A stretch of DNA of 41,217 bases from a virus. The stretch is taken from positions 1 to 41,217 of IMG/VR virus record IMGVR_UViG_3300011116_001286. One strand, given 5' to 3'. The translations under genes were made by a program, and so were the position numbers. Shown here piece by piece: positions 1,587 to 33,363 of this stretch (position 1 is the stretch's first letter; every line of letters begins with the position of its first letter). A model generated the notes under the pieces. The model was not told the DNA's origin, did not search any database, and worked only from the letters and a program-made list of their open reading frames with translations.

Positions 1587-1591
1587 CGTCT

Positions 1592-1599
1592 CTAAGTAT
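1592..1599 (-). promoter_or_regulatory. ATACTTAG motif before gp25-like ATG
   Basis: ATACTTAG, preceded by GA, lies 5 bases before ATG 1586, the same spacing as at 33364-33371. The sequence ATTGAATACT matches 7 of 10 positions of the T4 late box TATAAATACT. It overlaps the upstream part of the open frame, so it may also simply be coding sequence. Confidence 0.3.
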
Positions 1600-1608
1600 T
1601 CAATAGCT

Positions 1609-4069: not shown

Positions 4070-4313
4070 TTGCAATCCGTAGAATGCTGTCTCTCGTGAT
4101 TGCTATCTCCTTTATCACCTGCCGAACTTCGGGAGAGTCAAAGAAGACTGGCTTTGCTAGGATTGCAGACATGGCGGCATATCTCTTGTCAAGAGAATCT
4201 AGTGACTCCTCTACTGCGTCCTCAATTCTAAGTACTGTCATTGCAAACTTGTAGTTGAAGTAAAGAGAGACACCCAGACAGACAGCCAAAAATGCAATCG
4301 CAAGATAAATCAT
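3993..4313 (-). CDS. Single-pass membrane protein, N-terminal anchor
   Basis: 106 residues. Residues 2-23 form one hydrophobic membrane segment (IYLAIAFLAVCLGVSLYF), followed by a helical, charged cytoplasmic region and a very acidic C-terminus (EIEEEDRDDKEGT). There is no signal-peptidase motif, so it is probably anchored. Its ATG overlaps the stop of the glycosyltransferase gene upstream (TAATG). Its 3' end overlaps the late sigma gene by about 80 bases in another frame. I do not recognise the family. Confidence 0.65.
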   Translation of the reverse strand: MIYLAIAFLAVCLGVSLYFNYKFAMTVLRIEDAVEESLDSLDKRYAAMSAILAKPVFFDSPEVRQVIKEIAITRDSILRIANVLVSNIQAEIKEIEEEDRDDKEGT

Positions 4314-5458
4314 TAGAAAAGATCTCCTAAGGCTCTATCGTACTGCTTATTCACAGAATCTGTTGAGAACTTATCTCGGGCTTTCTTGCCCAGATCAGAA
4401 GCCCACTGTCTGGGAACATCAAAACTATTTCGAAACTTTTTGATCCGCTTCTTGAAGTCATCTTCAGAGGGCTCTGCCCACCTTAGTCCCTTTACGAATA
4501 TACGTCCGTCAACTCGACTCTCAGGAATCTCTCTTAAAGAATAATCAACTGTAACGTATTTCCCAAGGCCCATGAAATCTAAGTGTCCAGACCAATTTGT
4601 CGCAACAACGGGAAGATCATTACAAGCAGCCTCAAGAAGAGGAAGACCAAATCCCTCTCCTCGAGTGAGGCTTATAAGTGCCTTAATCTTTGGATGTCTG
4701 TAAAGTGCACCTATTTCACTTGTACTCATGTCCCCATGTATGAAGTGAATCTTTGGAAAAGGACCTCTCCTCACCTCTTTGAGCATCTTTGCCAGAGTGC
4801 TACGAGTGTTCATTCTGTCGATGTCAGTAGCTCTTCCAAGATTAGTCTTTATGACTATCCCGACGTCTTTATCGTCTGCAAATGATTCGCAGAGCCACTT
4901 GATAGTATTGAATATGTTTTTTCTATCTGTCGATGGTTCGATGCTCGTTAGCTGACTAACAACAAGGAAATTGAAAGGAGTACTCAGATCTAGATCTAGC
5001 TGATTTGTTCCCAGGATTTCATCGTCGTAAGCTTCACTAACGACTGACACTGGTTTGATGATGCCACCAGTTCCCCTGATGACACCCTCAGTAAATCGTG
5101 AGGGAACAAGAACTCTGTCCATAGCATTGCAGCAAGTTATCCATGCAGGATTGCACTTGTCTGTTTCAACAGCTGCAGTGATTCCAACATTCGTTTTAGC
5201 GAGGTTGGGATCCCACTCATCTGGAAGCTGTATCTGAAGAGAGACGTCAAAGTCTTTCTTTGTTGCATTAGAATCCGTCATGATACTCTTGACAGTCTCG
5301 TCTGCATCTGGGTTTATCATGAAAGTTGTATTACCCCAGGGGGTAATCTGCGCGGTTACATCAACGTTCTGAGACTTCAGCCACCTGTAGACCTGCCTTG
5401 CATGCACTCCATATCCACTTATAGAGAGCAGTGGGCCTCTTATGACGACGCTCTTCAT
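4313..5458 (-). CDS. Glycosyltransferase, GT4-like (GT-B fold)
   Basis: 381 residues. It shows the C-terminal donor-binding half of GT4-type retaining glycosyltransferases: SLTRGEGFGLPLLEAAC has the EX7E pair (E268 and E276 from ATG 5458), followed by PVVATNWSG. The N-terminus starts SVVIRGPLLSISGYGVHAR, the glycine-rich acceptor-side loop common to GT-B enzymes. The reaction would move a sugar from a nucleotide-sugar to a glycan acceptor in the cytoplasm; donor and acceptor cannot be read. The frame extends seven codons further, but ATG 5458 overlaps the upstream stop as TAATG and has GGAG eight bases before it, so it is preferred. It is the last gene of the glycan island before the baseplate block. 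Confidence 0.85.
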   Translation of the reverse strand: MKSVVIRGPLLSISGYGVHARQVYRWLKSQNVDVTAQITPWGNTTFMINPDADETVKSIMTDSNATKKDFDVSLQIQLPDEWDPNLAKTNVGITAAVETDKCNPAWITCCNAMDRVLVPSRFTEGVIRGTGGIIKPVSVVSEAYDDEILGTNQLDLDLSTPFNFLVVSQLTSIEPSTDRKNIFNTIKWLCESFADDKDVGIVIKTNLGRATDIDRMNTRSTLAKMLKEVRRGPFPKIHFIHGDMSTSEIGALYRHPKIKALISLTRGEGFGLPLLEAACNDLPVVATNWSGHLDFMGLGKYVTVDYSLREIPESRVDGRIFVKGLRWAEPSEDDFKKRIKKFRNSFDVPRQWASDLGKKARDKFSTDSVNKQYDRALGDLF

Positions 5459-6702
5459 TATATTGTCTCCATGTTCCATGTCTTACGACGACTTTTCCAG
5501 TTATCGATGAGATCTGTCAGGGTTCTATCCCACTCGTCAACAGTCTTCTGATAAGAGAACTCAGAGGTAACGTAGTCTCTAACTTTCTTACGTAGAGAGG
5601 ATTTCTTTTCCGCGGGCATCTCGTACATTTCCATCATTTTTTGCGCTACAGTCTCGCATGAAACGTAGTCTTCGTAGATGTAAGGAACTTGCTGCGATCC
5701 AACTAGCGTTCGAAGTTCTACAGGAAGAGCTAGTCCGTTTTCGCTTCCGTCCCTGTGATCAACAACCTGTCTAGTAAGACCACCCGTTTTAAGAGCAATG
5801 ATAGGCGTACCAGATTGCATAGCTTCAAGAGTTCCTAGTCCGAAACCTTCAGCAAAACTAATATTCAGGCAAAAATCTGATATGTTGTAGAGAGCGTTGA
5901 CCTTCTCAAACTCAAGTCTGTCTTTCGAAAAGAAGACGTTATCAACTATCCCGAGCATCTCAGAAGTGGCGAAAAGATTTGGCCCTTCTGAATCGAGGGG
6001 ATCAGTGTGCATTATCATGCTTGCATTTCTGTGTCCATGCTTCTTCTGCAATTCATCTAGGAATAACTTCCATGCTAAGAGAACGTCGTTGGGACGCTTC
6101 CTCTTGGCGTTTCTGTTTATCCACACGCCGACGAAGTGATTCTCCCTGTTCTTCCCGAGAAGCTGAACTTTCAGCCTGTTTCTCTCGTGATCAGTCAGGG
6201 GTGTAAACAGAGAATCAGGAACAGCATGTGGAATAAAGTGCGTCTTATCAGGGTGCGTCTTGGAGACGTTCTGGTACGTGTGATAAGAGTGGCAATTTAT
6301 GAGATCGGTTCCGTCATAGAGCACGTTATTAAATGCAGGACTTGGATCATTGTCCCAGACGTGCCACCACGCAATAGGGCAAACCTGATGCACCTCATCT
6401 ATCATCTCAAATAACCAGATAAAGAATCTGGGATCTGTGAAGATGAGGATTGCATCAGGTTTCTCTGTGGCGAGTGTAACTCTTATAAGTTCTCTGTCGC
6501 CAAACCCGTCAATCGGCTTGATAATGAAGTCTTCATTGACTACCATCGTTCGGTAGTCAGTGTGCTTCATTGCAGCGCCAAACTGTCTAAATGTGTACTT
6601 TTTCTTCTCGAGCAAGCCCATTATAAGGTGTCTTGTCTGAGTACCAACACCTGATGTTGAGAGAGCGTGATCCGAAATAACTAGTATCTTTTTCTTCTGC
6701 AT
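5458..6702 (-). CDS. Glycosyltransferase, GT4 family
   Basis: About 414 residues of GT-B fold. The N-terminal KKILVISDHALSTSGVGTQT segment is a typical acceptor-domain glycine loop. The donor-domain signature is SFAEGFGLGTLEAMQSGTPI (E286 and E294, the EX7E pair, counted from the GTG at 6705), followed by ALKTGG. The cytoplasmic retaining transferase role follows from the family; the sugar is unknown. A GTG at 6705 and the ATG at 6702 are both possible. Unlike most genes here it is not overlapped by its upstream neighbour. Its start codon lies in an 8-bp inverted repeat (6701-6728), which suggests translational control (inference). It is coupled by TAATG to the next transferase. Confidence 0.88.
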   Translation of the reverse strand: MQKKKILVISDHALSTSGVGTQTRHLIMGLLEKKKYTFRQFGAAMKHTDYRTMVVNEDFIIKPIDGFGDRELIRVTLATEKPDAILIFTDPRFFIWLFEMIDEVHQVCPIAWWHVWDNDPSPAFNNVLYDGTDLINCHSYHTYQNVSKTHPDKTHFIPHAVPDSLFTPLTDHERNRLKVQLLGKNRENHFVGVWINRNAKRKRPNDVLLAWKLFLDELQKKHGHRNASMIMHTDPLDSEGPNLFATSEMLGIVDNVFFSKDRLEFEKVNALYNISDFCLNISFAEGFGLGTLEAMQSGTPIIALKTGGLTRQVVDHRDGSENGLALPVELRTLVGSQQVPYIYEDYVSCETVAQKMMEMYEMPAEKKSSLRKKVRDYVTSEFSYQKTVDEWDRTLTDLIDNWKSRRKTWNMETI

Positions 6703-6728
6703 CACTCCGAAATCTAAATTGGAGTGAT
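6701..6728 (-). promoter_or_regulatory. Inverted repeat covering a start codon
   Basis: Perfect 8-bp arms, ATCACTCC (6728-6721) and GGAGTGAT (6708-6701) on the minus strand, with a 12-base loop. The 3' arm contains the GGAG and the first two bases of the ATG at 6702, so the folded RNA would hide the initiation region of the glycosyltransferase gene. No T-run follows, so it is not a typical terminator. Confidence 0.45.
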
Positions 6729-6741
6729 AATTAGTAAATGT

Positions 6742-7524
6742 TCACGTGCAGTGTGGCGTACCTTTGTATTCGCAATAAGTGCACGATAGACGGTTCTTGA
6801 TAGCTATTCCTCTTCTGACAGAGGCTATCATGTCAGTCATGAGCTTCGCTGCTTTCTCCATAACTTTTGGACCAGCACTCATCTCAATAAGCTGACAGGT
6901 CTTCCCCGGCTTTGCACCTTTCTTCAGCAGAACAAATCCACAGGCAATGTCCTTGGATTCAAGATTATTCTTCTTTGACCAGTGATGCTTGTACAGTGCA
7001 AGCTGTGCCTGGACTAGAAAATCTCTCTGCTTTTCAACTCGCCAACCTGCAGGACCTGACGTCTTCCAGTCAATCATCCAGTACTTATGCTTCTCTCCCT
7101 TTACAGGGACGCGCAGGATACCGTCAACAAATCCCTTGAAGTGCATATCATGTGTAGTTACAGATTCATACAGAGCCTCTTCTGCGCTGACGCATTCCCA
7201 TCCTGGGAAAGTCTCGTCAAGAAATGCTGGGATATCAGCCATGATATTTTGTGCATGACTGATCCACTCGTCTAGTCCCTCAAAGTTATTATTCTTCCAT
7301 GCCTCTCGAATTGATTCAAGTGCGATTTCAGAATGCATGACCCTTGTCTTGAGATACTCTTCACAGGCGGCGTGAACTATTGTTCCAAAGAAGAGGAAAG
7401 GAGAAGGAGTGCTTAGATCAATCTTGTCAATATGAAGCTTCTTGTGCTTCCAGGAGCACTCCTTCCAGGTGCGAATTTCAGAGTAAGATACGTGAGGTTT
7501 GCCAGTGGGAAAACTATTGTTCAT
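6742..7524 (-). CDS. Cas4/RecB-like PD-(D/E)XK nuclease with Fe-S cysteines
   Basis: About 260 residues with the full PD-(D/E)XK motif order of the RecB/Cas4 clade: YSEIRTWKEC near the N-terminus, H53 in GTIVHAACEEYL, D136 in FVDGILRV, D154-x-K156 in MIDWKTSG, and the QAQLALYKHHW helix (Q174, Y180), numbered from TTG 7530. One N-terminal cysteine (C25) and a C-terminal CTYCEYKGTPHC cluster (C250, C253, C261) match the four-cysteine iron-sulfur arrangement of Cas4 and AddB. Such enzymes cut or trim DNA ends. A role in phage recombination, genome processing or host DNA breakdown is inferred. It is odd that it sits inside a glycan operon. ATG 7524 is chosen, with no clear ribosome site. Confidence 0.8.
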   Translation of the reverse strand: MNNSFPTGKPHVSYSEIRTWKECSWKHKKLHIDKIDLSTPSPFLFFGTIVHAACEEYLKTRVMHSEIALESIREAWKNNNFEGLDEWISHAQNIMADIPAFLDETFPGWECVSAEEALYESVTTHDMHFKGFVDGILRVPVKGEKHKYWMIDWKTSGPAGWRVEKQRDFLVQAQLALYKHHWSKKNNLESKDIACGFVLLKKGAKPGKTCQLIEMSAGPKVMEKAAKLMTDMIASVRRGIAIKNRLSCTYCEYKGTPHCT

Positions 7525-7531
7525 AAACAAT
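7516..7531 (-). promoter_or_regulatory. Small hairpin with start codon in its loop
   Basis: Minus strand ATTGTT-TATG-AACAAT forms a 6-bp stem with a 4-base loop that carries the ATG at 7524 of the nuclease gene. It may tune initiation of this gene, which lacks a clear Shine-Dalgarno. It is short enough to arise by chance. Confidence 0.25.
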
Positions 7532-7569
7532 CATAACTCAATGGCAATCATTTTTACCCGCAAGTATCC

Positions 7570-8451
7570 TTAGATGTTTCTGAGATAATCTTCAAGTTTT
7601 ACTTTTGGAACCCAGTCAAGCTCTTCTCTTGCGCGTGTATTGTCTGCTAGAGTTTCTCTTGTCTCTCCTACTCTCTCTGGGATGTGCGTGCTGTCGCCGC
7701 CTATCATCAGGGCTATTTCATTTATCGAAAAACTAAACCCTGTCCCAATATTCACAGCACCAGTAACGCTATGCTTCTCAGCAGCCATCAGGTTTGCCAA
7801 AACAACGTCGTCAATGTGAGTGAAATCCCTTCGCTGTTTGCCGTCTCCGACAATTGTCAATTGTTGGCCTGCAGATTTTTGTCTTTTAAAGAGTCCCATA
7901 ACAGGAGCATACTGGCCTCTCAAGGGTTCTCGAGGACCGTAGACGTTGAAGTATCTGAGAGAAATAGTAGAAAGACTATATAGCTTTGTGTAGAGATCAC
8001 AGACCTCCTCTCCTTGCCACTTGGAGAGAGAATAAGGGGTTGCGCATCCCTTGGGTGCATTCTCAACAAAGGGAGGCTTTGAAGCATGTCCGTAGTAAGA
8101 GGAAGAAGCTGAATAAACGACGCGCTTCACACCAGAAATCCTGCTTGCTTCAAGAACCTCTTGTGTTCCAATTACGTTAACAGAGAAGCATTCAGAAGGG
8201 CTATTGACAGTCGGTTGAATCCTAGAGCGTGCTGCAAGATGAAATACAACATCAACATCAGCGTAGTATTTTCTGAGATTCTCATCCCTAATGTCGTCAA
8301 AGATGTTTTGTGCTGATTGGTTCCAGTAGAACGTGTCGTTCTGTGGCGCCGATTGATTATCAATACAGATGACATCATCGCCGCGTGAGATTAGTGCATC
8401 AACAATATGAGAACCAATAAAGCCAGCTCCTCCAGTTACAAGTGCTTTCAT
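7570..8451 (-). CDS. NAD-dependent nucleotide-sugar epimerase/dehydratase
   Basis: 293 residues of the extended short-chain dehydrogenase family (GalE/UDP-sugar epimerase or decarboxylase type). The N-terminus carries the Rossmann GxxGxxG (ALVTGGAGFIGSHIVDAL), then VFHLAARS, and the catalytic YxxxK in ATPYSLSKWQGEEV, with FNVYGPRE and DFTHIDDVV segments typical of this group. It would epimerise or dehydrate a UDP- or dTDP-hexose in the cytoplasm to feed the glycosyltransferases. The ATG at 8451 overlaps the stop of the upstream dehydrogenase as ATGA, and is preferred to the frame opening at 8496. The pairing with a UDP-glucose dehydrogenase-like enzyme suggests a uronic-acid branch (dehydrogenase, then epimerase or decarboxylase); the exact product is not readable. 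Confidence 0.85.
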   Translation of the reverse strand: MKALVTGGAGFIGSHIVDALISRGDDVICIDNQSAPQNDTFYWNQSAQNIFDDIRDENLRKYYADVDVVFHLAARSRIQPTVNSPSECFSVNVIGTQEVLEASRISGVKRVVYSASSSYYGHASKPPFVENAPKGCATPYSLSKWQGEEVCDLYTKLYSLSTISLRYFNVYGPREPLRGQYAPVMGLFKRQKSAGQQLTIVGDGKQRRDFTHIDDVVLANLMAAEKHSVTGAVNIGTGFSFSINEIALMIGGDSTHIPERVGETRETLADNTRAREELDWVPKVKLEDYLRNI

Positions 8452-9422
8452 TGTTGTCTCTTCTTGCTCACAGCGCGCCCGATCTGCTTTTCCCAATCAC
8501 GATCAACGGGATTTCTTACTTCTAGATTTTTTTCCCAGGCTGCCTGCATGACTTTTGGCTCTACACCATAGTGACGAGCAACGCTCATAAGAGCATTAAT
8601 GTCTTTCGGGAAGCAGTGCCCACCGAAACCGCGAACGTAACGACCATCATGCGTCGGAACAGGCCCGGGAACAGACCAGTGAGTCTCACCTAATCTTCGA
8701 TCGAACTTCGCGTACTCAACTACTTTATCATAGTCGATATTGAGACCATCAGCATCAAGCGCTTCACAGATTTGCGCGACCTCGTTGGCAAACGAGACTT
8801 TTACTGAGAGAAGACAATTGGTCACGTACTTGACCATCTCAGCAGTTGTTGCGCTTGTCTTGATGATAGGGACTTTTGGAAAAGCTCTCTGGAATATATT
8901 GCGTACTGTATTGATGTAAGGACGCGGACCGCCCAGCACAATGCGATTCTGTTCACGCATGTCATTTACAGCATTTGCTTCTGTGAGAAACTCTGGGTTA
9001 AACACAGCATAAAGTCCACGATCATTGAACATGCTATTCCAGCGCTCTGTAGAGCCTGGCGGAACAGTAGACTTTATAACAGCAATCCTTTGAAGAGAAT
9101 CAGCATTGTATGGCGCGTTGCATATTAGCTCTAGAACATCTTCAACGATTGAAGTATCAGGTGATCCATCTTCGTACATGGGAGTTGGAACACAGACAAA
9201 GAAAACGCCAGAGAAGCCAGATACTCCTTCGCACTCTTGCACAAAGTCAGATATAGACTTTGGGTAGATTACATCTCTGGTGATATCGCGAACGAAGCTG
9301 TTCGTTCCGCCAGCAGCTGTCTTGCCAGCCTTGTCGTAAACATAAACTTTCTCACCTCTCTCAGCCAAGACAGTGGTAAGGCTGCCACCAACAAAACCCT
9401 GACCAATAACAGCTATCGACAT
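8448..9422 (-). CDS. UDP-glucose/GDP-mannose dehydrogenase family, short form
   Basis: 324 residues. The N-terminal NAD domain has GxGxxG (AVIGQGFVGG), VFFVCVPTPM and KSTVPPGST. The central domain has NPEFLTEANA, VKYVTN (K198, N202) and GGHCFPKD with the catalytic Cys270. These are the signature blocks of enzymes oxidising UDP-sugars to UDP-uronates in two NAD-dependent steps. The protein ends about 50 residues after the catalytic Cys, so most of the C-terminal UDP-sugar-binding domain found in the usual 400-450-residue enzymes is absent. Short phage forms may dimerise or bind substrate differently (inference). It is followed with an ATGA overlap by the epimerase. A GAGAGGG ribosome site precedes ATG 9422, and this is the first minus gene left of the divergent intergenic region. 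Confidence 0.85.
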   Translation of the reverse strand: MSIAVIGQGFVGGSLTTVLAERGEKVYVYDKAGKTAAGGTNSFVRDITRDVIYPKSISDFVQECEGVSGFSGVFFVCVPTPMYEDGSPDTSIVEDVLELICNAPYNADSLQRIAVIKSTVPPGSTERWNSMFNDRGLYAVFNPEFLTEANAVNDMREQNRIVLGGPRPYINTVRNIFQRAFPKVPIIKTSATTAEMVKYVTNCLLSVKVSFANEVAQICEALDADGLNIDYDKVVEYAKFDRRLGETHWSVPGPVPTHDGRYVRGFGGHCFPKDINALMSVARHYGVEPKVMQAAWEKNLEVRNPVDRDWEKQIGRAVSKKRQQ

Positions 9423-9538
9423 CTAGACAGCCCTCTCTGTTCTCTCTGGTATTTCAAATCTCTTGATTAGCACAAGACTAAATTTGATTCTCATTTGCTC
9501 TCCTTTACTTTATGATAAGGAGGGATGATTTTTTGTTA
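9423..9538. promoter_or_regulatory. Divergent intergenic region (probable promoters)
   Basis: 116 bases between the minus-strand dehydrogenase and the plus-strand mutase, so at least one promoter must lie here for the mutase. It contains the AAGGAGGG ribosome site (9517-9524) and AT-rich stretches, but I see no convincing -35/-10 pair or T4-late box. Confidence 0.4.
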
Positions 9539-10636
9539 ATGTACGACTATCTTGTTGTTGGTGCTGGGCTGTTTGGCAGCGTTTTCGCGCACGAAGCTCT
9601 CCGAAAGGGTAAAAGCGTTCTTCTAATTGACAGCAGGAGACACATAGGTGGAAATTGCTACAGCGAGAGACGCGACGGCATAGACGTTCACACGTACGGT
9701 CCGCACATATTCCACACTTCCGACGATAGAATCTGGAAGTTTATGAATCAATTTACTGAGTTTAATAACTTCGTGCTTCGACCAAAAGTCAAGTACAAAG
9801 ACAAGATGTACTCGTTTCCTATCAACCTGATGACCCTTCATCAGGTGTGGGGAGTCAACACTCCCGATGAAGCGATGAGAGAGCTTGAGGCTGTTCGTAT
9901 TCCTTGTGAGAATCCTGCTAATCTAGAGGACTGGATTCTCTCTCAGGTCGGTCCTGAGATTTTCGATATCTTCATCCGCGGTTACACGATGAAGCAATGG
10001 ATGCGTGATCCAAAAGATCTTCCAGCTTCAATCATCAAGCGCCTTCCTATCAGGTTGACATTTGACGATAACTACTTCAACGATACGTACCAGGGAATCC
10101 CAAAAGAGGGATACACGAACATCTTCAACAACATGTTGCAAGGTTGTGAGATCGCTCTCGGTGAAAACTACTTCAGCAATCGTGAGAAGTGGAATTTGAT
10201 GGCGAAGAGAGTCGTATACACTGGAAAGATCGATGAGTTTTTCGATTACAAGTTCGGCGATCTGGAGTATCGCTCTCTTCGTTTCGAAGAAGAAAGAAGA
10301 GACGGAGACTTTCAGGGAAATGCCATCATAAACTACAGTGATGTATCAGTGCCTTACACTAGAATCACTGAGCATAAGCATTTCACGCCCGAGAGGCTTG
10401 ACAAGCTGAAGAGCACGATCTACACTAAAGAATATCCGATAGCCTGGGATCGCAGTGCAACTCCGTACTATCCAATTGGGGACGAGAAGAACTCTGAAAT
10501 TTATCGAAAGTACAAGGAAGCTGCAGATCTTGAATCGAATGTACTGTTTGGCGGTCGATTAGCTGAGTACAAGTACTACGACATGCACCAGGTCGTAGGT
10601 TCTGCATTGCAAAAATCTAGAAAGCACATAGACTAA
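9539..10636 (+). CDS. glf: UDP-galactopyranose mutase
   Basis: 365 residues, very close to bacterial Glf. This flavoenzyme interconverts UDP-galactopyranose and UDP-galactofuranose, the donor for Galf residues. The FAD-binding start is YDYLVVGAGLFGSVFAHEAL, followed by HIGGNCY, a YGPHIFHT segment, ELPA-like KDLPASIIKRLPIR, FQGNAIINYSD, VPYTRITEHKH and the C-terminal GGRLAEYKYYDMHQV, which holds the substrate-binding arginine and tyrosines of the family. A strong AAGGAGGG site at 9517-9524 lies 14 bases before ATG 9539; an in-frame TTG at 9533 would be better spaced. It is the only plus-strand gene in the glycan island and has its own transcription unit, so Galf supply may be regulated separately. 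Confidence 0.95.
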   Translation: MYDYLVVGAGLFGSVFAHEALRKGKSVLLIDSRRHIGGNCYSERRDGIDVHTYGPHIFHTSDDRIWKFMNQFTEFNNFVLRPKVKYKDKMYSFPINLMTLHQVWGVNTPDEAMRELEAVRIPCENPANLEDWILSQVGPEIFDIFIRGYTMKQWMRDPKDLPASIIKRLPIRLTFDDNYFNDTYQGIPKEGYTNIFNNMLQGCEIALGENYFSNREKWNLMAKRVVYTGKIDEFFDYKFGDLEYRSLRFEEERRDGDFQGNAIINYSDVSVPYTRITEHKHFTPERLDKLKSTIYTKEYPIAWDRSATPYYPIGDEKNSEIYRKYKEAADLESNVLFGGRLAEYKYYDMHQVVGSALQKSRKHID

Positions 10637-10657
10637 GCTTGCTATGAAAAAACAATT

Positions 10658-11569
10658 TCAAGGAAGGTCTTTCAAGGAGAACCATCCTTCTCTTGATCTA
10701 ATCAATTCTACAGAGTGTCTAATTTTTTCTTTTGTTTCATCTGGACGAGAAAGCGCTCTCTCGACTAACTCAGGAACCTCTGATAGTTCTCTGTATGTCA
10801 TTATAGATGGAATTTCATCGACAAAGTATGACTCAAGTCCTGGCTCATACATTCTAATTGAGACTGTGCCCCTGGCAGCTATCTCTATTTCCTTTGCCCA
10901 CGTCGTGTACTTCAAGCCCAGCGGAAATTGCTCACCATTGATAGTCCACTTCTCACCTGATTGTTCATTCAGAAAGAACTGAATTCTATTCAGGTCTACG
11001 AGGAAGTCATCATAGCTTCCCATTGGGAGTATTGTAACATCTAGACCCATCTTGCTAAGGTCTTGGAATGCTTGCTTCCTGTGAGGATGAAGCGTCCCCT
11101 TAAATCCGAACTTGATCTCTCTCTTTTCCCAGTCTGGTCCAACATTGCAGTATTGCTTGAGAGGCCACTGTCTTGCAAATATAGACTTGAATCCACGCTC
11201 ATTTAGGAAGTCTGTCCACCACTTTGAAGTGTTTATGAAGCACCTCACGTTCATCTTGCTAACAATTGTCTCGTAAGCGCCCTTGAAGCTTGCTGTATCT
11301 ACAAAAGACTCCCATGGGTCTTGATCATAAACATAGATCTCTCTACCGTCAAGCAGTGCACCTAGCTGAGTAGAAATCCTGTATATTGTGCGAAGCTTTA
11401 GAGTACTCAGGATGACGTCGCATCTTGGTATGCTAACTCCTGCATTAATCTCAGCGACAGTTATGTCAACGTATTCGGTGCACTGATCAACGAGGTTGGC
11501 CAGGAGCATGTGTTGAAAGCAATTTGTTCTAACGTAGTTTCTATCGTCTATTAAGTGAACAAGTTTCAT
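10658..11569 (-). CDS. Glycosyltransferase-like protein (GT-B type, family unclear)
   Basis: 303 residues. The N-terminal half (MKLVHLIDDRN, then DVILSTLKLRTIYRI and EIYVYDQDPWESF) and the C-terminal half (IKFGFKGTLHPHRKQAF, then an EIEIAARGTVSIRMYEPGLE segment with a DEIPSIMTY follow-up) look like the two Rossmann-like domains of a GT-B transferase. The region near IAARGTVSIR occupies the place of the donor-binding glycine region. A clean EX7E motif is not visible, so it may belong to a divergent family. Its ATG overlaps the upstream stop as ATGA, placing it in the same operon as the formyltransferase-like gene. It is convergent with the mutase gene, with 21 bases between stops. Confidence 0.6.
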   Translation of the reverse strand: MKLVHLIDDRNYVRTNCFQHMLLANLVDQCTEYVDITVAEINAGVSIPRCDVILSTLKLRTIYRISTQLGALLDGREIYVYDQDPWESFVDTASFKGAYETIVSKMNVRCFINTSKWWTDFLNERGFKSIFARQWPLKQYCNVGPDWEKREIKFGFKGTLHPHRKQAFQDLSKMGLDVTILPMGSYDDFLVDLNRIQFFLNEQSGEKWTINGEQFPLGLKYTTWAKEIEIAARGTVSIRMYEPGLESYFVDEIPSIMTYRELSEVPELVERALSRPDETKEKIRHSVELIRSREGWFSLKDLP

Positions 11570-12240: not shown

Positions 12241-12241
12241 C

Positions 12242-16480: not shown

Positions 16481-16487
16481 GTGAACC

Positions 16488-20239: not shown

Positions 20240-20279
20240 GAGGTCTTCCTGAGAAATTATACGGGAAGACTTTCGATCG

Positions 20280-21365: not shown

Positions 21366-22309
21366 GCATTCCTCGCTGGGAAGTCATATTTAGAGGATTC
21401 GATCTTCTCTATAGTTTCGCGCACTCGCTTTGTCAGTTCGTGATTTTCTTCTAAGAAATCCCTGTATCGATTGATTCTGCTGGTGAGAGAAACTTTGTCG
21501 TGAAGAGCTTCTTCTGTCATCCTGACTATCTCGGCGCTGCTGTGATCTTCAGTTATCTCGATCATCTCGCGTCGCAGTTCATCGGGCATAAAGCTCGGTG
21601 CATCCCCTATTGGAAGGCAGCATCCCTTGCCGAACTCGATGTATTTGGCAAGAAGACGATCACACCACCCGGCCTTGCAAGTTATTCCAATCCAACACTG
21701 TGATGCTGCCCTAACATAGTCTCCACCAAATATCTGCCCAGGATTCTGGCTAATGGAATAACCGGGGAATGGTATGAAACCGATCTTAAACTTCTTAGAC
21801 TCGATAACTGCTGTTGCAATCCTGTGCCTGATCGGGTAGTAGCTAGGCGTGAGATTACCACTCACTAAGATGTCATAGTTCTTGTTGAAATTTCGAGTCA
21901 TATCTTGATAATGCAGGCTGTGCATCATCGAGATAACATTGATCTCATCTTCAACTAGTGATTTGACATTTCTCTCAGAAGGGAAGGGAGTGATTACAGC
22001 TTCGAATCCGAGTCGCTTTGCATAGTCTCTCTCGGTTCTGAATAGGACCCTATCGGGCTTTGATTCATCAACTCCCCAGATTATCTTTCGATTTTTAAGC
22101 TGCGCCATTCTCTGCTGGTTTGACTCATTCTTTAGAGAAATGTGCACCAATATCACGTCATCAGGTTTAACCAGGCTGTGCCCAGCTGCGTCGAATGATG
22201 TCTCTGAATGTAGTTTGCAACCTTGCTTTTCAAATTCCCGCAGGATATCACCAGCTATGGTGACGTTGTTGAAATCCCAGACATCGTCTCTGTGGATTAC
22301 GTGGATCAC
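21362..22309 (-). CDS. Glycosyltransferase-like protein (divergent, family unclear)
   Basis: 315 residues. The N-terminus, IHVIHRDDVWDFNNVTIAGD, is followed by DDVILVHISLKN and KIIWGVDESKPDRV, as in the acceptor domain of GT-B enzymes. The C-terminal part, KIGFIPFPGYSISQNPG, then CWIGITCKAGWCDRLLAKYIEFGKGC, recalls the donor domain of CgeB-like proteins, where a conserved tyrosine/glutamate face replaces EX7E. Function is probably sugar transfer but not certain. The start is a GTG overlapping the methyltransferase stop (GTGA). Confidence 0.5.
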   Translation of the reverse strand: MIHVIHRDDVWDFNNVTIAGDILREFEKQGCKLHSETSFDAAGHSLVKPDDVILVHISLKNESNQQRMAQLKNRKIIWGVDESKPDRVLFRTERDYAKRLGFEAVITPFPSERNVKSLVEDEINVISMMHSLHYQDMTRNFNKNYDILVSGNLTPSYYPIRHRIATAVIESKKFKIGFIPFPGYSISQNPGQIFGGDYVRAASQCWIGITCKAGWCDRLLAKYIEFGKGCCLPIGDAPSFMPDELRREMIEITEDHSSAEIVRMTEEALHDKVSLTSRINRYRDFLEENHELTKRVRETIEKIESSKYDFPARNA

Positions 22310-23043
22310 CAGTCACCCAGGAATTCGCTAGGATTGAAGAACGGGCTTGTGATAAGAACTTGTCCGTAATCGATCTGATCATCAGGAATGCGCCTATCAT
22401 CGAAGAAGATGCGCCTATCCATGATTATCAGCTTCTTATCTAGTCCCGTGATGCTGTCTATGACTGTTGCACAGTCTATGTCTTTCTCAGACTTTGTGGG
22501 GAGGTGATAGTCATCGAACAGGATGAACTTGTTGAACTTGTTCCTGCAATTCTGCCAGTCAGCCATGACAGCGTCGTAGCGATGATCTCCGTCAACGTAG
22601 ATCATGTCAAACTTCTCGTTTATTGCAGGGATAGCAGTTGCGGAATCCTGCTTGACAAACCTGATGTTCTTGAGGTACTCATGCGGAATTCCACGAGCAA
22701 TCTCGTTGAGGAGGTCTTCAGAGAGAGCAGGGTCGATGGTCGTGACTGTTCCGTTGATCCCTGCATCAATCATAGCTTTTGAAGCGCACACTGCAGAATA
22801 ACCTCTGCCGAAACCTATCTCGAGATAGCTCTGAATCTTGAACTTCTTGATCAAGCTGTAGATTAAGATTCCGCGTTCGTAGTTTGGTCTGAAGAAGCTT
22901 CCCGCAGACTTATAGAGGGGGCTGCTCTTATCTCTTGACTTCTTTGCAGTGAATTCGCCAATGTGATCAAAATCGCCAAGAGAGATATCAGAGAGATTAA
23001 CCTCGATATCTGACAAGAATTCGACGATGTGCTTCTTTTCCAT
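22306..23043 (-). CDS. SAM-dependent methyltransferase, class I
   Basis: 245 residues. Motif I is SYLEIGFGRGYSAVCASKAM (SAM-binding glycine loop); TTIDPA is the ribose-binding acidic motif; FDMIYVDGDHRYDAVMADW and FILFDDYHLP are typical of the Methyltransf_24 group, which methylates sugars or small metabolites. It probably adds an O-methyl group to a sugar of the glycan, often a capping step that ends chain growth (inference). A GGAG sits before ATG 23043, which directly follows the upstream stop. The metal-binding DGDH motif is present. Confidence 0.85.
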   Translation of the reverse strand: MEKKHIVEFLSDIEVNLSDISLGDFDHIGEFTAKKSRDKSSPLYKSAGSFFRPNYERGILIYSLIKKFKIQSYLEIGFGRGYSAVCASKAMIDAGINGTVTTIDPALSEDLLNEIARGIPHEYLKNIRFVKQDSATAIPAINEKFDMIYVDGDHRYDAVMADWQNCRNKFNKFILFDDYHLPTKSEKDIDCATVIDSITGLDKKLIIMDRRIFFDDRRIPDDQIDYGQVLITSPFFNPSEFLGDW

Positions 23044-23964
23044 TTAGATCTCCTTGAATACTTTTCTAAAAATTTCTACACCAGCGGGCATGAAAAGATC
23101 CTTCACCTTCTCATAAGCGTGATCGACGTCTGTTGCATGGCTGACAATATCGATCATGTTGTCCGGGTATATGATGTCATTCGCTGACAGTATCTCTGGT
23201 GATACTCCGACATTTGTCGAAATGATCGGCGTGCGAGACGCTGCGCACTCAAGAACTGCCTGCGGACCTCCCTCGTATCGAGAAGTTACAAGGTAAAGAT
23301 CAAGCCAGTTGTACATCTCGTTTAGCCTATTGAAATCAGGCAACTCTGCATAGTAATAAGGCACCTTTGCGTCCTTGAGGCGGTTTATAACGTACTGTCG
23401 TCTCCAACCAGCAAGTACAGGAACTATTCTCTGGTCTCTCTTGTAGGCTTCTATCACTATGTCGCAGAATACATCGGGCCCCTTCTCAAGCTTTGGAGAC
23501 TTGAGATCAGACCCCTCTGTGTCTCTCTGAAAAGAACCGATGAGAAATCTGTCGTCAGGTATGCCGTGCCTGCGTCTCGCTTCCCTCCTGTTCATAGGAA
23601 ACCAGATGTTCTGATTTACCCAGAACGGTCTAACGAAAACGGGCTTGCTAGTCAAAGACTGTATTTGTCTCTGAGTTGCTAGACAGGGAACGTGGTAGAG
23701 GTCTACGTACTGATCTCTGTCAGAGAATTCTTTGCGAGAAGCTTCTGAGAATTTCTCAGGAACAATGTGATGAACAGTGCAAACTACGTGCTTCTTGGAC
23801 AAGATATCCCTGGGTATTTGATTCCAGCACCAGTCAGCCAAAAGCCAAATGACGGAAGCTTCACTAGGATCTTGTACGAACGTGTCGGGATTGGACTCGT
23901 TCCACTCAGAGACGAATCTATCGCAAATCCACTTTTCTCCCGCCTGCAATGTGAATATTTTCAT
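23044..23964 (-). CDS. Glycosyltransferase, GT4-like
   Basis: 306 residues, shorter than usual GT4 proteins. The donor domain is clear: YLVTSRYEGGPQAVLECAA has the EX7E pair (E231 and E239), followed by RTPIISTNVG. The N-terminal domain is reduced (MKIFTLQAGEKWICDRFV). It acts on a nucleotide-sugar in the cytoplasm; specificity is not readable. The ATG overlaps the upstream stop as ATGA. This and the next two genes form a run of compact GT4-like genes. Confidence 0.8.
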   Translation of the reverse strand: MKIFTLQAGEKWICDRFVSEWNESNPDTFVQDPSEASVIWLLADWCWNQIPRDILSKKHVVCTVHHIVPEKFSEASRKEFSDRDQYVDLYHVPCLATQRQIQSLTSKPVFVRPFWVNQNIWFPMNRREARRRHGIPDDRFLIGSFQRDTEGSDLKSPKLEKGPDVFCDIVIEAYKRDQRIVPVLAGWRRQYVINRLKDAKVPYYYAELPDFNRLNEMYNWLDLYLVTSRYEGGPQAVLECAASRTPIISTNVGVSPEILSANDIIYPDNMIDIVSHATDVDHAYEKVKDLFMPAGVEIFRKVFKEI

Positions 23965-24863
23965 CCTGTTAGTACCTTTGCGTATGCGTCTGCAACCAGC
24001 TTTATGTCAAGGTGACTACTGTCAACAGCAGGACGAGGAGGAAGCACCACATCCAGATTTAGATCTGGTGGTTGATCATAATCAAGTAGCTGGAAATCGT
24101 ATTTGAAGGATTCTCTTATCACTAATCCTGAGTTTTTGACAATCTCGTGTGTTCCGCCTGAGTCTGTACAGATTACAGGGCAACCCACAGAGAGAGCTTC
24201 TACTACAACATTGGGACAGTGATCAAGCCATCCAAGATGTATCATCCAGTCTGCATTACCATAAATTGATAGACAGGTTTCGTGTGAGAGAGATCCCGTG
24301 TATCCTATTCTGGGATGACTGACGTAATGGTCCGGGTTTGATCCCATCACTATCAAAAACCCATTAATCCCTCTCTGGATAAAATTTAGAAATAGCTGAA
24401 TTGTCTCTTTCAGCCTTTTCTGTCTGTGCCAGTTTGCTGAAGTTACGAATATTGTGTCGTATTTCTTTCTGAGGTCATCGAGTCCTGCATCTCTTAATTT
24501 TTCGAAGAGACGTATGCCATTGTTAATGACAGTGCCTTTTCTCTCTCCCCAGTGACGAGAAGTCATAGTCTTGTCGAAATTTGACTGCCAGACAATGTGA
24601 TCTGCAGAGTCGTAGACCTGCTTGATCAACCTGTTCTTGACTTCAAACTCTTCTGGTTTAAACCAGATTCCATCAAGCCTCTGGACTATACGCTTTCCTG
24701 GAATGATTCTAGTAGAGGGCTCAATGAACACAAGACATGAATCATAGTCTTTGTCATCGACTATCTCGAAACCCTTCTCTGTGAGTTCAGAGGCTAGCCT
24801 GTGAGCGAAGGTGTTCGGGCCGGTTCTTGACCCAAAATTGACATTAGAGAAGTGTATTCTCAT
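23961..24863 (-). CDS. Glycosyltransferase, GT4-like
   Basis: 300 residues from ATG 24863 (RIHFSNVNFGSRTGPNTFAH), which overlaps the upstream stop as ATGA; the frame opens 13 codons earlier. The SRTGPNTFAHRLASEL segment is the acceptor-side glycine loop. The donor side is LDHCPNVVVEALSVGCPVI followed by CTDSGGTHEIV, the usual GT4 PNVVxEA signature, with Asp in place of the first Glu of EX7E. Role as for other GT4 enzymes; sugar unknown. Confidence 0.85.
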   Translation of the reverse strand: MRIHFSNVNFGSRTGPNTFAHRLASELTEKGFEIVDDKDYDSCLVFIEPSTRIIPGKRIVQRLDGIWFKPEEFEVKNRLIKQVYDSADHIVWQSNFDKTMTSRHWGERKGTVINNGIRLFEKLRDAGLDDLRKKYDTIFVTSANWHRQKRLKETIQLFLNFIQRGINGFLIVMGSNPDHYVSHPRIGYTGSLSHETCLSIYGNADWMIHLGWLDHCPNVVVEALSVGCPVICTDSGGTHEIVKNSGLVIRESFKYDFQLLDYDQPPDLNLDVVLPPRPAVDSSHLDIKLVADAYAKVLTG

Positions 24864-25738
24864 GCAGACTTCCTGAGAAATTCGTTGATGCAACTTTTCC
24901 AATCACCGAACGGGTCATGATTTGGTTTTGCATCCTGAATCTTACTCAGGAGATCGTCAAAATTATCGTAAATCCAGTCTTGCCCTACGAATTCACAGGC
25001 TCCTCCTCCGTCCCTTATCGCGAAAGTAGGAATACCCGATGCTATCGATTCAATTACGTGATTGGGTCCTGGATCGAACAAAGACGCGCTAACATAGACG
25101 TCGTACTTGCTCAGCTCTTCACCTAGGTCTGTTCCAAAGAGAGGCTGTACAACTCGGGTATTTTTGAAAGAACCCCTATCCCTTCCAATGTACGTGAATG
25201 TGAACCTGTCATCATTTCCTACGAGAGAATCTAGCTTTTCGTAGATATCAAAACCCTTCATGGGGTTGTTTGACCAGTGGTGGGTAACAAGATTAATCTT
25301 TCCGTTTTCTAGACGAGGTCTCTTCTTAAAGATGTTCCTGTCGACACCATTATAAGTGAAATCGATTGACTTGCACTTCCAGCCCTTTGCCAGGTGATAG
25401 TCCATCATCCACTTAGAGACGAAGATAGTCTTGCTGCAGTAGTTAGATACGTTAGAAAGGAATTCGTCAAGACCGCTAGTTCCTTTTCTTGCATCACACT
25501 CGTTTATACGAATTGTTATAGGAGCATTCCTGCTCATGCTATACGTTATCAGACTCTGTATATCATCGAAACCATTCTCAGGTCTAGGATCTACTACGAT
25601 GATCTTGTCTATGTTCTGAGTGATATTGTGCACTACCTCGTGTCCGCTTGCTGTCAGCGTATCACACAGGGCACGCACGAACAAATTTCCACCTCCCCAG
25701 GGACCAGAAACAGGTCTTCGATTTACCAGAACCCTCAT
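24860..25738 (-). CDS. Glycosyltransferase, GT4-like
   Basis: 292 residues. The start RVLVNRRPVSGPWGGGNLFV has the acceptor-domain glycine run. The donor site reads VSASLFDPGPNHVIESIASG then IPTFAIRDGGGACEFV, a GT4-like signature with Asp replacing the first Glu of EX7E. It resembles the neighbour at 23961 in length and layout, so the two may derive from a duplication. The ATG overlaps the upstream GT2 stop (ATGA). Confidence 0.82.
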   Translation of the reverse strand: MRVLVNRRPVSGPWGGGNLFVRALCDTLTASGHEVVHNITQNIDKIIVVDPRPENGFDDIQSLITYSMSRNAPITIRINECDARKGTSGLDEFLSNVSNYCSKTIFVSKWMMDYHLAKGWKCKSIDFTYNGVDRNIFKKRPRLENGKINLVTHHWSNNPMKGFDIYEKLDSLVGNDDRFTFTYIGRDRGSFKNTRVVQPLFGTDLGEELSKYDVYVSASLFDPGPNHVIESIASGIPTFAIRDGGGACEFVGQDWIYDNFDDLLSKIQDAKPNHDPFGDWKSCINEFLRKSA

Positions 25739-26454
25739 CTAACGAATCTCCTAGCCCTGAGATATTCAGCTTCTGCTTTTTGAAATTTCGCATCATCTGT
25801 GTGAAAATTCTGAGGTGCTAGATCGATGGTGTAGTGATAAGCAACGATCGGCTCATAGTGCCACCCAGATGACTTTGCTAAAACTGGAAGGTATATTGCT
25901 TGATCACCTATGCGCTTGAAATACTTCCCATCAGGTCCTCTAAAGTTCTCGTCATGGACGCCCGTTATAACAGACTTTCTAAAAGTCTTCAAATGAGAGG
26001 ATACCCATGGATGGACGTAGGGGTCTGATCCCCTGGGAAGGTGCCCTGATATGTTCATGTCAGTGAAGCTCCACCTGTGAGAAGTCCACAAGACGTCAAT
26101 AGGCAGACGATTGTACCTGTCATTTATTATTGCAAGAGCATCGTTGTCGCAGAGCCAATCGTCTGCATCGAGACGACAAACAATCTCGTCTTCATCGCAG
26201 AGATTGATACCCATCAGAACATTCTCTACTTCCCACTTCTTCTCAGCATTCCTAATGAGAGTGATTCTATCAGATATCCCTATTGACTGGCAGAACATCT
26301 CGATCACGTCTGGAGTTTTATCAGTAGAGATGTCGTCTATGATGATGGCCCGCCAGTGTGGGTAGCACTGTGCTACCAGACTCATTAGCATCTGACAGAC
26401 TGTTTCCCTTGCGTTGTACGCAGGTATGACGAAAACGAACTTATTTCTTTGCAC
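25735..26454 (-). CDS. Glycosyltransferase, GT2 family
   Basis: 239 residues, a textbook small GT2: FVFVIPAYNARETVCQMLMS at the N-terminus, IIIDDISTDKT as the nucleotide-binding loop, and VCRLDADDWLCDND carrying the DADD metal motif at residues 96-99, followed by a segment ending GPDGKYFKRIGDQA. An inverting transfer from a nucleotide-sugar is expected. The start is a GTG at 26454 with GAGAGGG upstream, overlapping the end of the upstream gene by 14 bases. Confidence 0.9.
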   Translation of the reverse strand: MQRNKFVFVIPAYNARETVCQMLMSLVAQCYPHWRAIIIDDISTDKTPDVIEMFCQSIGISDRITLIRNAEKKWEVENVLMGINLCDEDEIVCRLDADDWLCDNDALAIINDRYNRLPIDVLWTSHRWSFTDMNISGHLPRGSDPYVHPWVSSHLKTFRKSVITGVHDENFRGPDGKYFKRIGDQAIYLPVLAKSSGWHYEPIVAYHYTIDLAPQNFHTDDAKFQKAEAEYLRARRFVR

Positions 26455-28357
26455 GAACCCTCTCTATCCAGCCCGACATTACAGCGGGATGCGACTTCTT
26501 TATCTCAATGTGGGGAGTAGCTCGGCTGAGATCTACACGACTGTGGAAGATCCACCCTCCTGTCTTTTGCTCTATCTCATCTGCCACCTGATTGATATCT
26601 TCCTGCGTAATGTCAGCCCACCTCTTGTTGGTGAAAACATTGTTCTCGGGAGTATCTTCGTACTTCTTGCTGTAGAGAGAGCACCAGAACCGAGACCAAT
26701 GATCCCTGTAGTTCTCCATCTTTCTTCTAATGTCAAACCAAGAGTAATGGTAGACACCGGGAATAGTCTCGACGACATTGTTAAACCAGTCCTGATACTG
26801 CTGACGAACAGGGTGATCAGGATCCTGAAGTATCGCAGCTCTAGCACTCTCAGACTCTACGCTGACAAAGGTCACGAACTGTACGGGCTCCAGCGTTCCG
26901 TTATTGATGTAGTCACATCCATCGGTTCCTGGCAGTGCATAGACGTCTCCTTCGTCATCGTGCCTGCGAAGAGACCCAGGTATCCCGTGAGTGATATGAG
27001 ATTTGTTCCTGCTTATTCTCCACTTCCACGGATTGACATCTATTCTCACCTTTCCATTTGATCCCCAGAACTCGGTGACAGGTAGTCCTACTAGGTCGAC
27101 CTGTGGGGGCATAGATCTAGCGAGCGATCTAATCTTCTCGTAGTCGTCCTCGTGGACGATCTCATCGACGTCTTGCTGCCAGCAGATGTCGCCCGTACAA
27201 AGAGACCTTGCACGGGCCTTAAGCATGCCATCAGATTCGTAAGCAAAAGTCTTTGAATTCCAATCGACAGGAAGGATGTGAACTTTCAGGCGATTGTCTC
27301 TCTCAGATATCTCTTTGAGCTTTTGAATAGTCGCATCGTCAGATCCTGCATCAACTACGACAACCTCGTCGCAGAATCCCAATAACGACGTGATAGACTC
27401 AACGAAAGGGTATCCGCGCGTTGCACAGTTGTGCGTGGTTGTGTAACCGGAGATCTTTGGTGTGTAACTCATATCGTGCTTGACAGCATTCCAGAAGCGT
27501 TCCCGCGCAGCGTAGAGATATGACTCGGTGTCAAGAGGATCATCTGATGCAAACCACTCTTCGTCTTTGTGCTGTACGAAGTCATTAAGGTGCAGTTTGC
27601 ATCCTAGCAACTTCGCTTCAATGACCATTCTTGGGCAGGTGTCGAATCCCCTTGGAAGGTAGACGAAACCTTCTGACCGAGAGAGTTTCTTCAGAAGATC
27701 GTTGTACGGAAGATTCCACACAACCTCATAGTCTTTTTCGTTGTCTTTGCACCACTGCTCTGCAAGATCAAATCCCTTGATCCATGAATTTGACCCAAGG
27801 ACAATCCAACCCTTTCTTTCCTTTGTCTCAGAATTGAGTAGCTTCACATCTGCAAAGAACTTCTCATCAAAAACAGAACTCAGCACTACGTTGGGTACAT
27901 TCTGCAGAAACGGAAAAGTCTTGAGGTAGATCTTCTGCTGTCCTTCTGACATCCACCAGAGAGACTTGGCGCCGTAATAGAACGCAGAGATAAGCTTTCC
28001 ATGAGCGTGATCCCTGCAGTCACACGGCAGACCAGTCTCAGACTGATGTTTCTCTGGAGACCTGTATCTGCAGAACTTATAGTCATATTCGAGTATCGCA
28101 TACTTGAGATTCGCTATGACAGTAGGAATCAAGTCAACATTCAGGCTAGAGAAGTTTCCGAATATCCAAAACTTATCGTGACCTGATTCAAGCGTCTTCA
28201 TGTCCACTCTTGAAGCGTGGACTTTGAGAATTCTGAGCGGACTTGATCCAATAAGTGCCTCTGATGTTAGTTCGGCACCTCCGACATAGTTCTCGACGAA
28301 CATGTCTGATACGAAAACGACTTCACAGTCTCTTGGAATGGTTTGAAAGTTAGACAT
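26441..28357 (-). CDS. Two-domain glycosyltransferase (GT-B-like + GT2-like)
   Basis: 638 residues, the largest gene of the island and its first minus-strand gene. Residues 1-290 look GT-B-like (CEVVFVSDMFVENYVGGAEL, WIVLGSNSWIKGFDLAEQW, FDTCPRMVIEAKLLGC with the donor-site Glu), with a cysteine/His group at C112-C114 (PCDCRDHAHG). Residues 300-500 are GT2-like (KISGYTTTHNCATRGY, EVVVVDAGSDDATI, ICWQQDVDEIV with a DVD motif at 396-398). Two transferase folds in one chain suggest two sugar additions in sequence, or one active and one binding domain. The upstream terminator at 28405-28430 means it probably has its own promoter in 28358-28395. Confidence 0.82.
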   Translation of the reverse strand: MSNFQTIPRDCEVVFVSDMFVENYVGGAELTSEALIGSSPLRILKVHASRVDMKTLESGHDKFWIFGNFSSLNVDLIPTVIANLKYAILEYDYKFCRYRSPEKHQSETGLPCDCRDHAHGKLISAFYYGAKSLWWMSEGQQKIYLKTFPFLQNVPNVVLSSVFDEKFFADVKLLNSETKERKGWIVLGSNSWIKGFDLAEQWCKDNEKDYEVVWNLPYNDLLKKLSRSEGFVYLPRGFDTCPRMVIEAKLLGCKLHLNDFVQHKDEEWFASDDPLDTESYLYAARERFWNAVKHDMSYTPKISGYTTTHNCATRGYPFVESITSLLGFCDEVVVVDAGSDDATIQKLKEISERDNRLKVHILPVDWNSKTFAYESDGMLKARARSLCTGDICWQQDVDEIVHEDDYEKIRSLARSMPPQVDLVGLPVTEFWGSNGKVRIDVNPWKWRISRNKSHITHGIPGSLRRHDDEGDVYALPGTDGCDYINNGTLEPVQFVTFVSVESESARAAILQDPDHPVRQQYQDWFNNVVETIPGVYHYSWFDIRRKMENYRDHWSRFWCSLYSKKYEDTPENNVFTNKRWADITQEDINQVADEIEQKTGGWIFHSRVDLSRATPHIEIKKSHPAVMSGWIERVRAKK

Positions 28358-28394: not shown

Positions 28395-28430
28395 CTTAAA
28401 AGAAGAAAGCCACCCCGAAGGGTGGCTTTC
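28395..28430 (-). terminator. Intrinsic terminator after the tail-fibre gene
   Basis: Perfect 11-bp stem, GAAAGCCACCC paired with GGGTGGCTTTC (28405-28415 and 28420-28430), with a 4-base loop that reads TTCG on the minus strand, followed on that strand by TTCTTTT. It ends the tail-fibre transcript before the glycan island. Confidence 0.9.
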
Positions 28431-33012: not shown

Positions 33013-33022
33013 CAATTATCTC

Positions 33023-33358: not shown

Positions 33359-33363
33359 CACAA

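Follow-up and report, generated by a model that had tools for sequence, protein, structure and literature searches.

The virus record IMGVR_UViG_3300011116_001286, all 41,217 bases of which were analysed and are referred to here as the window, carries a phage-encoded glycan-biosynthesis locus at positions 4313–28357. The window is probably a fragment. The locus is flanked by baseplate-wedge and fibre-like genes and is one allele of a polymorphic locus that occurs throughout the lineage, with a conserved rim and a swappable interior, an arrangement newly described here. We assign a probability of roughly 0.55 to the reading that its enzymes glycosylate, in the cytosol and independently of a lipid carrier, an acceptor that the phage itself encodes and that is most likely a virion protein.

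Window proteins were scanned against Pfam, NCBIfam and PHROG, and family matches support the presence of glycosyltransferases (GTs) together with nucleotide-sugar and tailoring enzymes (Table 1). The 24-kb glycan-biosynthesis island proposed in a first-pass annotation of the sequence is thus real, and its borders are exact gene ends: the first GT4 gene ends at 4313 and a gene for a 638-residue GT starts at 28357. Open reading frames cover about 97% of the window. Between the two anchor genes, 22 of 23 genes are on the minus strand and most have short overlaps, which argues for a gene cluster rather than a chance assemblage; the exception is the gene for the UDP-galactopyranose mutase Glf. The earlier count of about a dozen GTs is made up of seven genes with a Pfam match and six more that are GT-like by inspection only, three of which contain DxD/ExD motifs. 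Most of the nucleotide-sugar and tailoring enzymes listed at that stage were confirmed by family matches, but the formyltransferase-like gene has only a sub-threshold match to a C-terminal domain, and the deacetylase-like gene has no family match and only an HDLD-like motif. Catalytic motifs are kept in the UDP-sugar dehydrogenase Ugd (GGHCFPKD), the epimerase (YSLSK) and the 4,6-dehydratase (YGMCK), and a simple pattern for the aminotransferase lysine had no match in the window. Judged by their families, the PseC-like aminotransferase and the PseB/FnlA-like 4,6-dehydratase (17267–19428) form a probable UDP-4-amino-4,6-dideoxy-N-acetylhexosamine (HexNAc) branch. Contrary to what had been supposed, the set is not complete, since no nucleotidylyltransferase was identified in the window locus, and the precursor UDP-sugars must therefore come from the host. 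A PD-(D/E)XK nuclease is embedded as a non-sugar gene within the cluster.

Glf and GT4b served to find relatives in IMG/VR, and the comparison takes in 29 uncultured records, in whole or in part, and stretches of two isolates, 31 in total. The two rim glycosyltransferases GT4a and GT4b are present in 29 of the 31, a count that is partly circular because many records were fetched through GT4b. The nuclease occurs in 27, Ugd in 23, the two-domain GT of 638 residues in 18 and the rim GT2 in 15. Contrary to what had been thought, the locus is thus not uncommon but near-universal in the lineage. Sequence identity to close relatives is 46–56% for GT4a, 56–71% for GT4b, the most conserved enzyme of the locus, and 50–60% for the two-domain GT (13 close relatives). 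The gene order is largely shared: baseplate, GT4a, GT4b, nuclease, (Glf, epimerase, Ugd), variable genes, (GT2), two-domain GT, fibres and PhoH. The borders are formed by the two GT4 genes, the nuclease and usually the epimerase and Ugd on one side, and by the two-domain GT on the other. In the 23 records with both anchors, the window included, this rim encloses 2 to 35 variable genes, the distance from anchor to anchor is 3.6–31.9 kb (4–37 genes), and the GC content is lower inside the locus than outside in every record. Two records (G034 and G039) are nearly devoid of an interior and have only GT4a, GT4b, Ugd, the nuclease, the epimerase, GT2 and the two-domain GT.

The interior of the window locus comprises 18 genes, the formyltransferase-like and deacetylase-like genes among them, ten of which have no homologue in any of the 31 relatives, and the remainder occur in 1 to 11 of them. 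The exchange is most evident between records G001 and G002, the backbone proteins of which are about 93% identical, whereas of their interior genes no more than 5 of 13 and 5 of 17, respectively, are shared at 60% identity or more. Among 113 interior proteins of the relatives, Pfam matches identified epimerases/dehydratases, GT2, GT6 and GT10 glycosyltransferases, methyltransferases, aminotransferases and cytidylyltransferases. In some relatives a small CTP_transf_like gene (138 residues; L091:4073–4489, L086:10213–10629) adjoins Ugd, and its family suggests CDP-linked glycan precursors in these phages. The phage locus shares with Wzx/Wzy-dependent O-antigen and capsule loci the clustering of nucleotide-sugar enzymes with several GTs and the conserved borders around a strain-variable interior.

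The interior genes are functional rather than decaying. For 22 interior genes of the pair G033/G024, the median dN/dS (ratio of non-synonymous to synonymous substitution rates) is 0.087 and the maximum 0.24; the genes are under purifying selection and hence are not the inactive remnants that the first-pass annotation had considered. An assembly chimera, or an integrated fragment of a bacterial O-antigen locus without a function in the phage, would fit the slightly lower GC content of the interior and the inverted Glf gene, but it is highly improbable, because more than 20 separate records show the same arrangement, related clusters exist in annotated phage isolates, the baseplate genes are contiguous with the locus and the interior dN/dS is low. 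The Glf gene of the window is relocated as well as inverted relative to the relatives, on the strand opposite to all its neighbours. It is 87% identical to that of G001 in nucleotides and 94% in amino acids, with a synonymous divergence (dS) of 0.84, whereas the neighbouring genes are saturated; by these comparisons, Glf was acquired horizontally, by transfer between phages, later than the divergence of its neighbours. The epimerase and Ugd are likewise more similar than their neighbours, and the epimerase/Ugd/Glf sub-module therefore seems to be exchanged. The Ugd of the window stops after the central domain, with the catalytic cysteine motif kept and no match to the C-terminal UDP-binding domain. 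The phage homologues, in the window and 23 relatives, are all short (279–374 residues, mostly 282–331), which identifies the Ugd of the lineage, as judged from domain content, as a conserved minimal UDP-sugar dehydrogenase.

The first-pass annotation had noticed that the O-antigen-like set lacks flippase, polymerase and ligase genes, and this absence extends to 14–29 related records of up to 322 kb. Among the 447 interior proteins, not one is predicted to have more than a single membrane (hydrophobic) segment; the same segment counter gave nine for each of the Escherichia coli K-12 controls RfbX and WzxC, six for WbbH and zero or one for soluble enzymes. The Wzx family (PF01943) was absent from 20 of 20 records and the Wzy_C/ligase family (PF04932), to which PglL-type transferases belong, from 29 of 29, with the positive control detected in both searches. 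The initiating phosphoglycosyltransferase families Bac_transf (PF02397, absent also from the window) and Glycos_transf_4 (PF00953), the ABC-2 membrane exporter (PF01061) and STT3 were each absent from 14 of 14 records, although the STT3 control was detected only in archaea. Because all the records may be incomplete, the absence of export genes from the lineage is strong but not absolute. The genes that define the Wzx/Wzy-dependent, ABC-transporter-dependent and Pgl-type classes of export and transfer were not found. What the records contain, with the proviso that the relatives may be incomplete, is the gene set of the autonomous virion-glycosylation class known from giant viruses and mycobacteriophages: GTs and sugar enzymes unaccompanied by genes for lipid carriers or export. 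Since the enzymes are all predicted to be soluble and no gene for a lipid carrier, flippase, polymerase, ligase or oligosaccharyltransferase was found, transfer of the sugars probably takes place in the cytosol, straight onto a phage-encoded acceptor.

The locus resembles bacterial O-antigen loci, which have a variable interior between fixed borders. The rfb cluster of E. coli K-12 combines Glf, a dehydratase, an acetyltransferase and GTs in one cluster, but also includes a flippase and a polymerase, with 6–9 transmembrane segments, that the phage locus lacks. This likeness, together with the lower GC content of the interior, is what speaks for remodelling of the host surface, in which phage GTs would act on the undecaprenyl-linked glycan or lipid A-core of the host, and the host flippase, polymerase and ligase would finish the product; the altered O-antigen or capsule would block superinfection or grazing. 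The same was proposed for the 24 lipopolysaccharide (LPS) genes of Prochlorococcus phage P-SSM2 (PMC2984593), and the rim GT2 of the window weakly matches a GtrB-like PHROG. We nevertheless consider host-surface remodelling unlikely: the locus has neither an initiating transferase nor a membrane partner of the GtrA/GtrC type, the GT4 pair is kept in phages of hosts with unrelated envelopes, and up to about 35 genes would be a heavy load for a lytic phage just to protect a dying cell.

The distribution of the GT4 pair also bears on the acceptor. A search of phage isolates with bases 1–25000 of the window gave no nucleotide matches; as proteins, GT4b and GT4a occur as a pair, at about 22–31% identity, in Flavobacterium phage immuto, Microcystis phage Mel-JY01 and Rhodothermus phage RM378. 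Immuto and Mel-JY01, which at about 30% are the nearest cultured relatives, so that the earlier label "T4-like" holds only loosely, also carry a nuclease and a sugar cluster near the pair. The surfaces of the hosts of these three phages are unrelated, and a phage-encoded acceptor is therefore the simplest reading. In cellular genomes, matches above 35% were limited to a handful of mostly marine contigs of metagenome-assembled genomes (MAGs); three matches at 63–64% share the baseplate synteny of this phage, and the others drop to 27% or less over long alignments. Phage contigs of the lineage with the same baseplate–GT4 synteny (L250, L251 and L252) have been placed in MAG bins under the labels Halobacteriovorax and Methylococcaceae TMED69, the TMED69-labelled contig being 305,838 bases long. 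Host labels of bins like these are not to be relied on.

Comparisons of two rim enzymes by fold and sequence give weak support to the preferred reading. The two-domain GT was predicted by AlphaFold2 with a mean confidence score (pLDDT) of 90; its N-terminal part is GT-B-like by inspection and its C-terminal part is of the GT2/GT-A type. The nearest folds to the GT2 part, identified by Foldseek with low TM scores, are the peptide S-glycosyltransferases SunS and ThuS, and its nearest sequence (E 0.0014) is GmaR, a flagellin transferase. GT4b (AlphaFold2 pLDDT 88.6) has a GT4 fold, and its best relative of solved structure by sequence is chlorovirus B736L (E 1.4e-14), the acceptor of which is itself unproven (PMC9614988). 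GT4b was also considered as a specific relative of B736L, but several bacterial GT4 enzymes rank higher by structure and the match was reduced to a sequence hint.

In the mechanism that we infer, the rim enzymes (GT4a, GT4b, the two-domain GT, often GT2, the epimerase, Ugd and Glf) would build a common core, probably containing hexuronic acid and galactofuranose, from host UDP-sugars. The interchangeable interior would add strain-specific modified sugars; for the window this is predicted to be a 4-amino-4,6-dideoxy-HexNAc that may receive an acyl or a formyl group or be coupled by the ATP-grasp enzyme, with methylation in addition. Transfer of the sugars in the cytosol directly onto a phage-encoded acceptor would give the particle an exchangeable coat. 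More tentatively, we propose that these are phage serotype loci: the lineage would keep a recombinationally exchanged locus of 4–32 kb dedicated to the assembly, within the bacterial cytosol and without a lipid carrier, of variable glycans on the phages' own particles, and co-circulating phages would differ in their glycan coat as bacteria do in O-antigen.

Several points weigh against glycosylation of a virion protein. The acceptor and the glycan are both deduced from the genes. The window and its uncultured relatives may be fragments, and export genes could be encoded in the parts that are missing, or the host could provide them. The fold of GT4b is generic, with B736L only eighth by structure. 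G021 and G022 share an interior that is about 100% identical but have diverged fibres, a terminator-like hairpin splits the fibre genes from the glycan genes, and the sugar cluster of immuto is not beside its fibres. Over 36 kb, G021 (L204/L332) and G022 (L207/L331) are about 99–100% identical in nucleotides, and the genes that differ strongly are those of the fibres, which have many internal repeats; fibre evolution in this pair is rapid and independent of the glycan locus. In this one informative pair, of close strains differing mainly in the fibre, no co-variation of fibre and glycan genes was seen. The fibre-like proteins are the most Ser/Thr-rich of the window (24–26% Ser+Thr, against a median of 12.5%). 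Phage fibres are generally rich in these residues, so that the composition is a weak hint, and a consideration of Ser/Thr-rich tails as acceptor sites yielded no convincing candidate. Co-transcription of the fibre and glycan genes, considered as a sign of a fibre acceptor, is weakened by the hairpin (28430–28405); similar hairpin-like sequences are visible in several relatives. A virion protein remains the preferred acceptor, and a fibre in particular is not established.

The nuclease consistently accompanies the GT4 pair, in immuto and Mel-JY01 as well, and such proximity would fit GTs that glycosylate modified DNA bases to protect the phage genome against restriction, together with a nuclease that clears unmodified DNA. 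Phage GTs have been described that attach a variety of glycans to DNA (Pyle et al. 2024, as cited in PMC12619734), and immuto carries 7-deazaguanine genes. DNA hypermodification is nonetheless quite improbable. The thymidylate synthase/dCMP hydroxymethylase family (PF00303) is absent from eight of nine uncultured records of 137–322 kb and present in the ninth and in immuto; it is implausible that packaged bases carry a glycan requiring a dozen GTs, and the replacement of whole sugar sets looks more like antigenic diversification than anti-restriction.

Glycosylation of the phage's own particles, the reading we prefer, can be compared with known viral systems. P-SSM2 has 24 LPS biosynthesis genes in two clusters, a set described as unique to one cyanomyovirus genome (PMC2984593). 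It is similarly a large surface-sugar gene set of unproven function in a marine contractile-tailed phage, but it belongs to another lineage, in contrast to the lineage-wide locus with fixed rims and exchangeable interior described here, and a profile search found no GT4b homologue in P-SSM2. The glycosylation clusters of Megavirinae contain 6–33 genes and are clade-specific (PMC10117803), and chloroviruses glycosylate autonomously, with a conserved core glycan and virus-specific decoration (PMC9614988). These giant viruses share with the phage locus the virus-encoded nucleotide-sugar enzymes and GTs and the variation around a conserved core, and the glycans of Megavirinae contain bacterial-type amino sugars like that predicted for the window. 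Their hosts, however, are eukaryotic and their glycans have been shown chemically on the particle; one GT4 family match is all that might indicate common descent. In mycobacteriophages, phage GTs glycosylate virion structural proteins (Freeman et al. 2023, as cited in PMC12363180 and PMC12619734), which is the mechanism proposed here, but these citing accounts describe single GTs per phage and do not mention a large exchangeable sugar-synthesis locus. Immuto and Mel-JY01, with the nuclease near the GT4b–GT4a pair and a sugar-gene cluster, and RM378, with a tandem GT4b/GT4a pair, differ from the window in their low identity and in an interior that is smaller or missing. The aquatic jumbo "moraphages" have four core GT orthogroups, baseplate gp6/gp25 and PhoH in their core and unexplained variable genomic islands (PMC12619734). 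Their genome sizes overlap those of the large relatives here (242–322 kb), but that study neither resolves the islands nor ties them to GTs. If the lineages coincide, the locus is a plausible answer to these islands.

Outside the locus, the conserved proteins beside the baseplate genes are kept in 25 of 31 relatives, and no site matching the T4 late promoter TATAAATA was found in the window. Beyond the fibres and the PIN-PhoH protein, a 439-residue protein (36207–37526) that is 27–30% identical to proteins of relatives has a weak match to a GroEL PHROG over residues 161–355. The right end of the window (37610–41217) breaks the synteny of the closest relatives, and 38231–38842 and 38957–39859 have matches (about 45%) in G012 alone, a record that lacks the GT4 pair; this departure is either a rearrangement or an assembly junction.

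Table 1. Features of the window, in order of position.
Feature	Position	Strand	Support
Baseplate wedge, gp6-like	3–1115	-	PHROG 219/43 matches (with gp25-like)
Baseplate wedge, gp25-like	1119–1619	-	PHROG 219/43 matches (with gp6-like)
Conserved proteins	1609–2928, 2928–3281, 3290–4075	-	Kept in relatives
GT4a, rim GT4-type glycosyltransferase	4313–5479	-	Pfam PF00534
GT4b, rim GT4-type glycosyltransferase	5458–6705	-	Pfam
PD-(D/E)XK nuclease	6742–7530	-	PF12705, 6.5e-20; PHROG exonucleases
NAD-dependent nucleotide-sugar epimerase	7570–8496	-	PF01370, 2.6e-55; GalE-like, below equivalog cut-off; YSLSK motif
UDP-sugar dehydrogenase (Ugd-like), short form	8448–9422	-	PF03721/PF00984; TIGR03026 above cut-off; GGHCFPKD motif
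UDP-galactopyranose mutase Glf	9512–10636	+	NCBIfam equivalog TIGR00031, 379 bits against cut-off 304
Variable interior, 18 genes	10658–25738	-	Pfam/NCBIfam and inspection
Six GT-like interior genes	At 10658, 14464, 15680, 19421, 20280, 21362	-	Inspection, no family match
HAD	12909–13547	-	Pfam/NCBIfam
ATP-grasp	13544–14464	-	Pfam/NCBIfam
GNAT acetyltransferase, PseH-like	15165–15683	-	Pfam/NCBIfam
Hexapeptide acyltransferase	16488–17267	-	Pfam/NCBIfam
DegT aminotransferase, PseC-like	17267–18430	-	NCBIfam TIGR03588, sub-equivalog
4,6-dehydratase, PseB/FnlA-type	18427–19428	-	NCBIfam TIGR03589, sub-equivalog; YGMCK motif
Methyltransferase	22306–23043	-	Pfam/NCBIfam
GT4-type glycosyltransferase, interior	23044–23964	-	Pfam/NCBIfam
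GT4-type glycosyltransferase, interior	23961–24902	-	Pfam/NCBIfam
GT4-type glycosyltransferase, interior	24860–25738	-	Weak match, below cut-off
GT2, semi-conserved rim	25735–26454	-	PF00535, 5.7e-20
Two-domain GT, 638 residues, first gene of the locus	26441–28357	-	PF00535 at residues 308–419
Terminator-like hairpin between fibre and glycan genes	28405–28430	-	11-bp stem, T-rich tail
Two Ser/Thr-rich fibre-like proteins, together with the small protein of the next row	28451–33361	-	PHROG 6002/4527
H-type-lectin-like small protein	33023–33361	-	H_lectin below cut-off
PIN-PhoH protein, right-hand border	33376–34731	-	PF02562, PF13638, phrog_2765

If the product of the locus is carried on the particle, these phages would bear an antigen-like glycan diversity of their own. 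Adsorption, non-specific binding, grazing, the action of decoy vesicles and recognition by host defences could then be affected, and the presence of GTs among the core genes of such lineages would be explained. The locus is one candidate for the unexplained variable islands of aquatic jumbo phages, and it is a large source of unannotated soluble glycosyltransferases. The conserved GT4 pair of the cultured relatives immuto, Mel-JY01 and RM378 makes the proposed glycosylation of phage particles directly testable.

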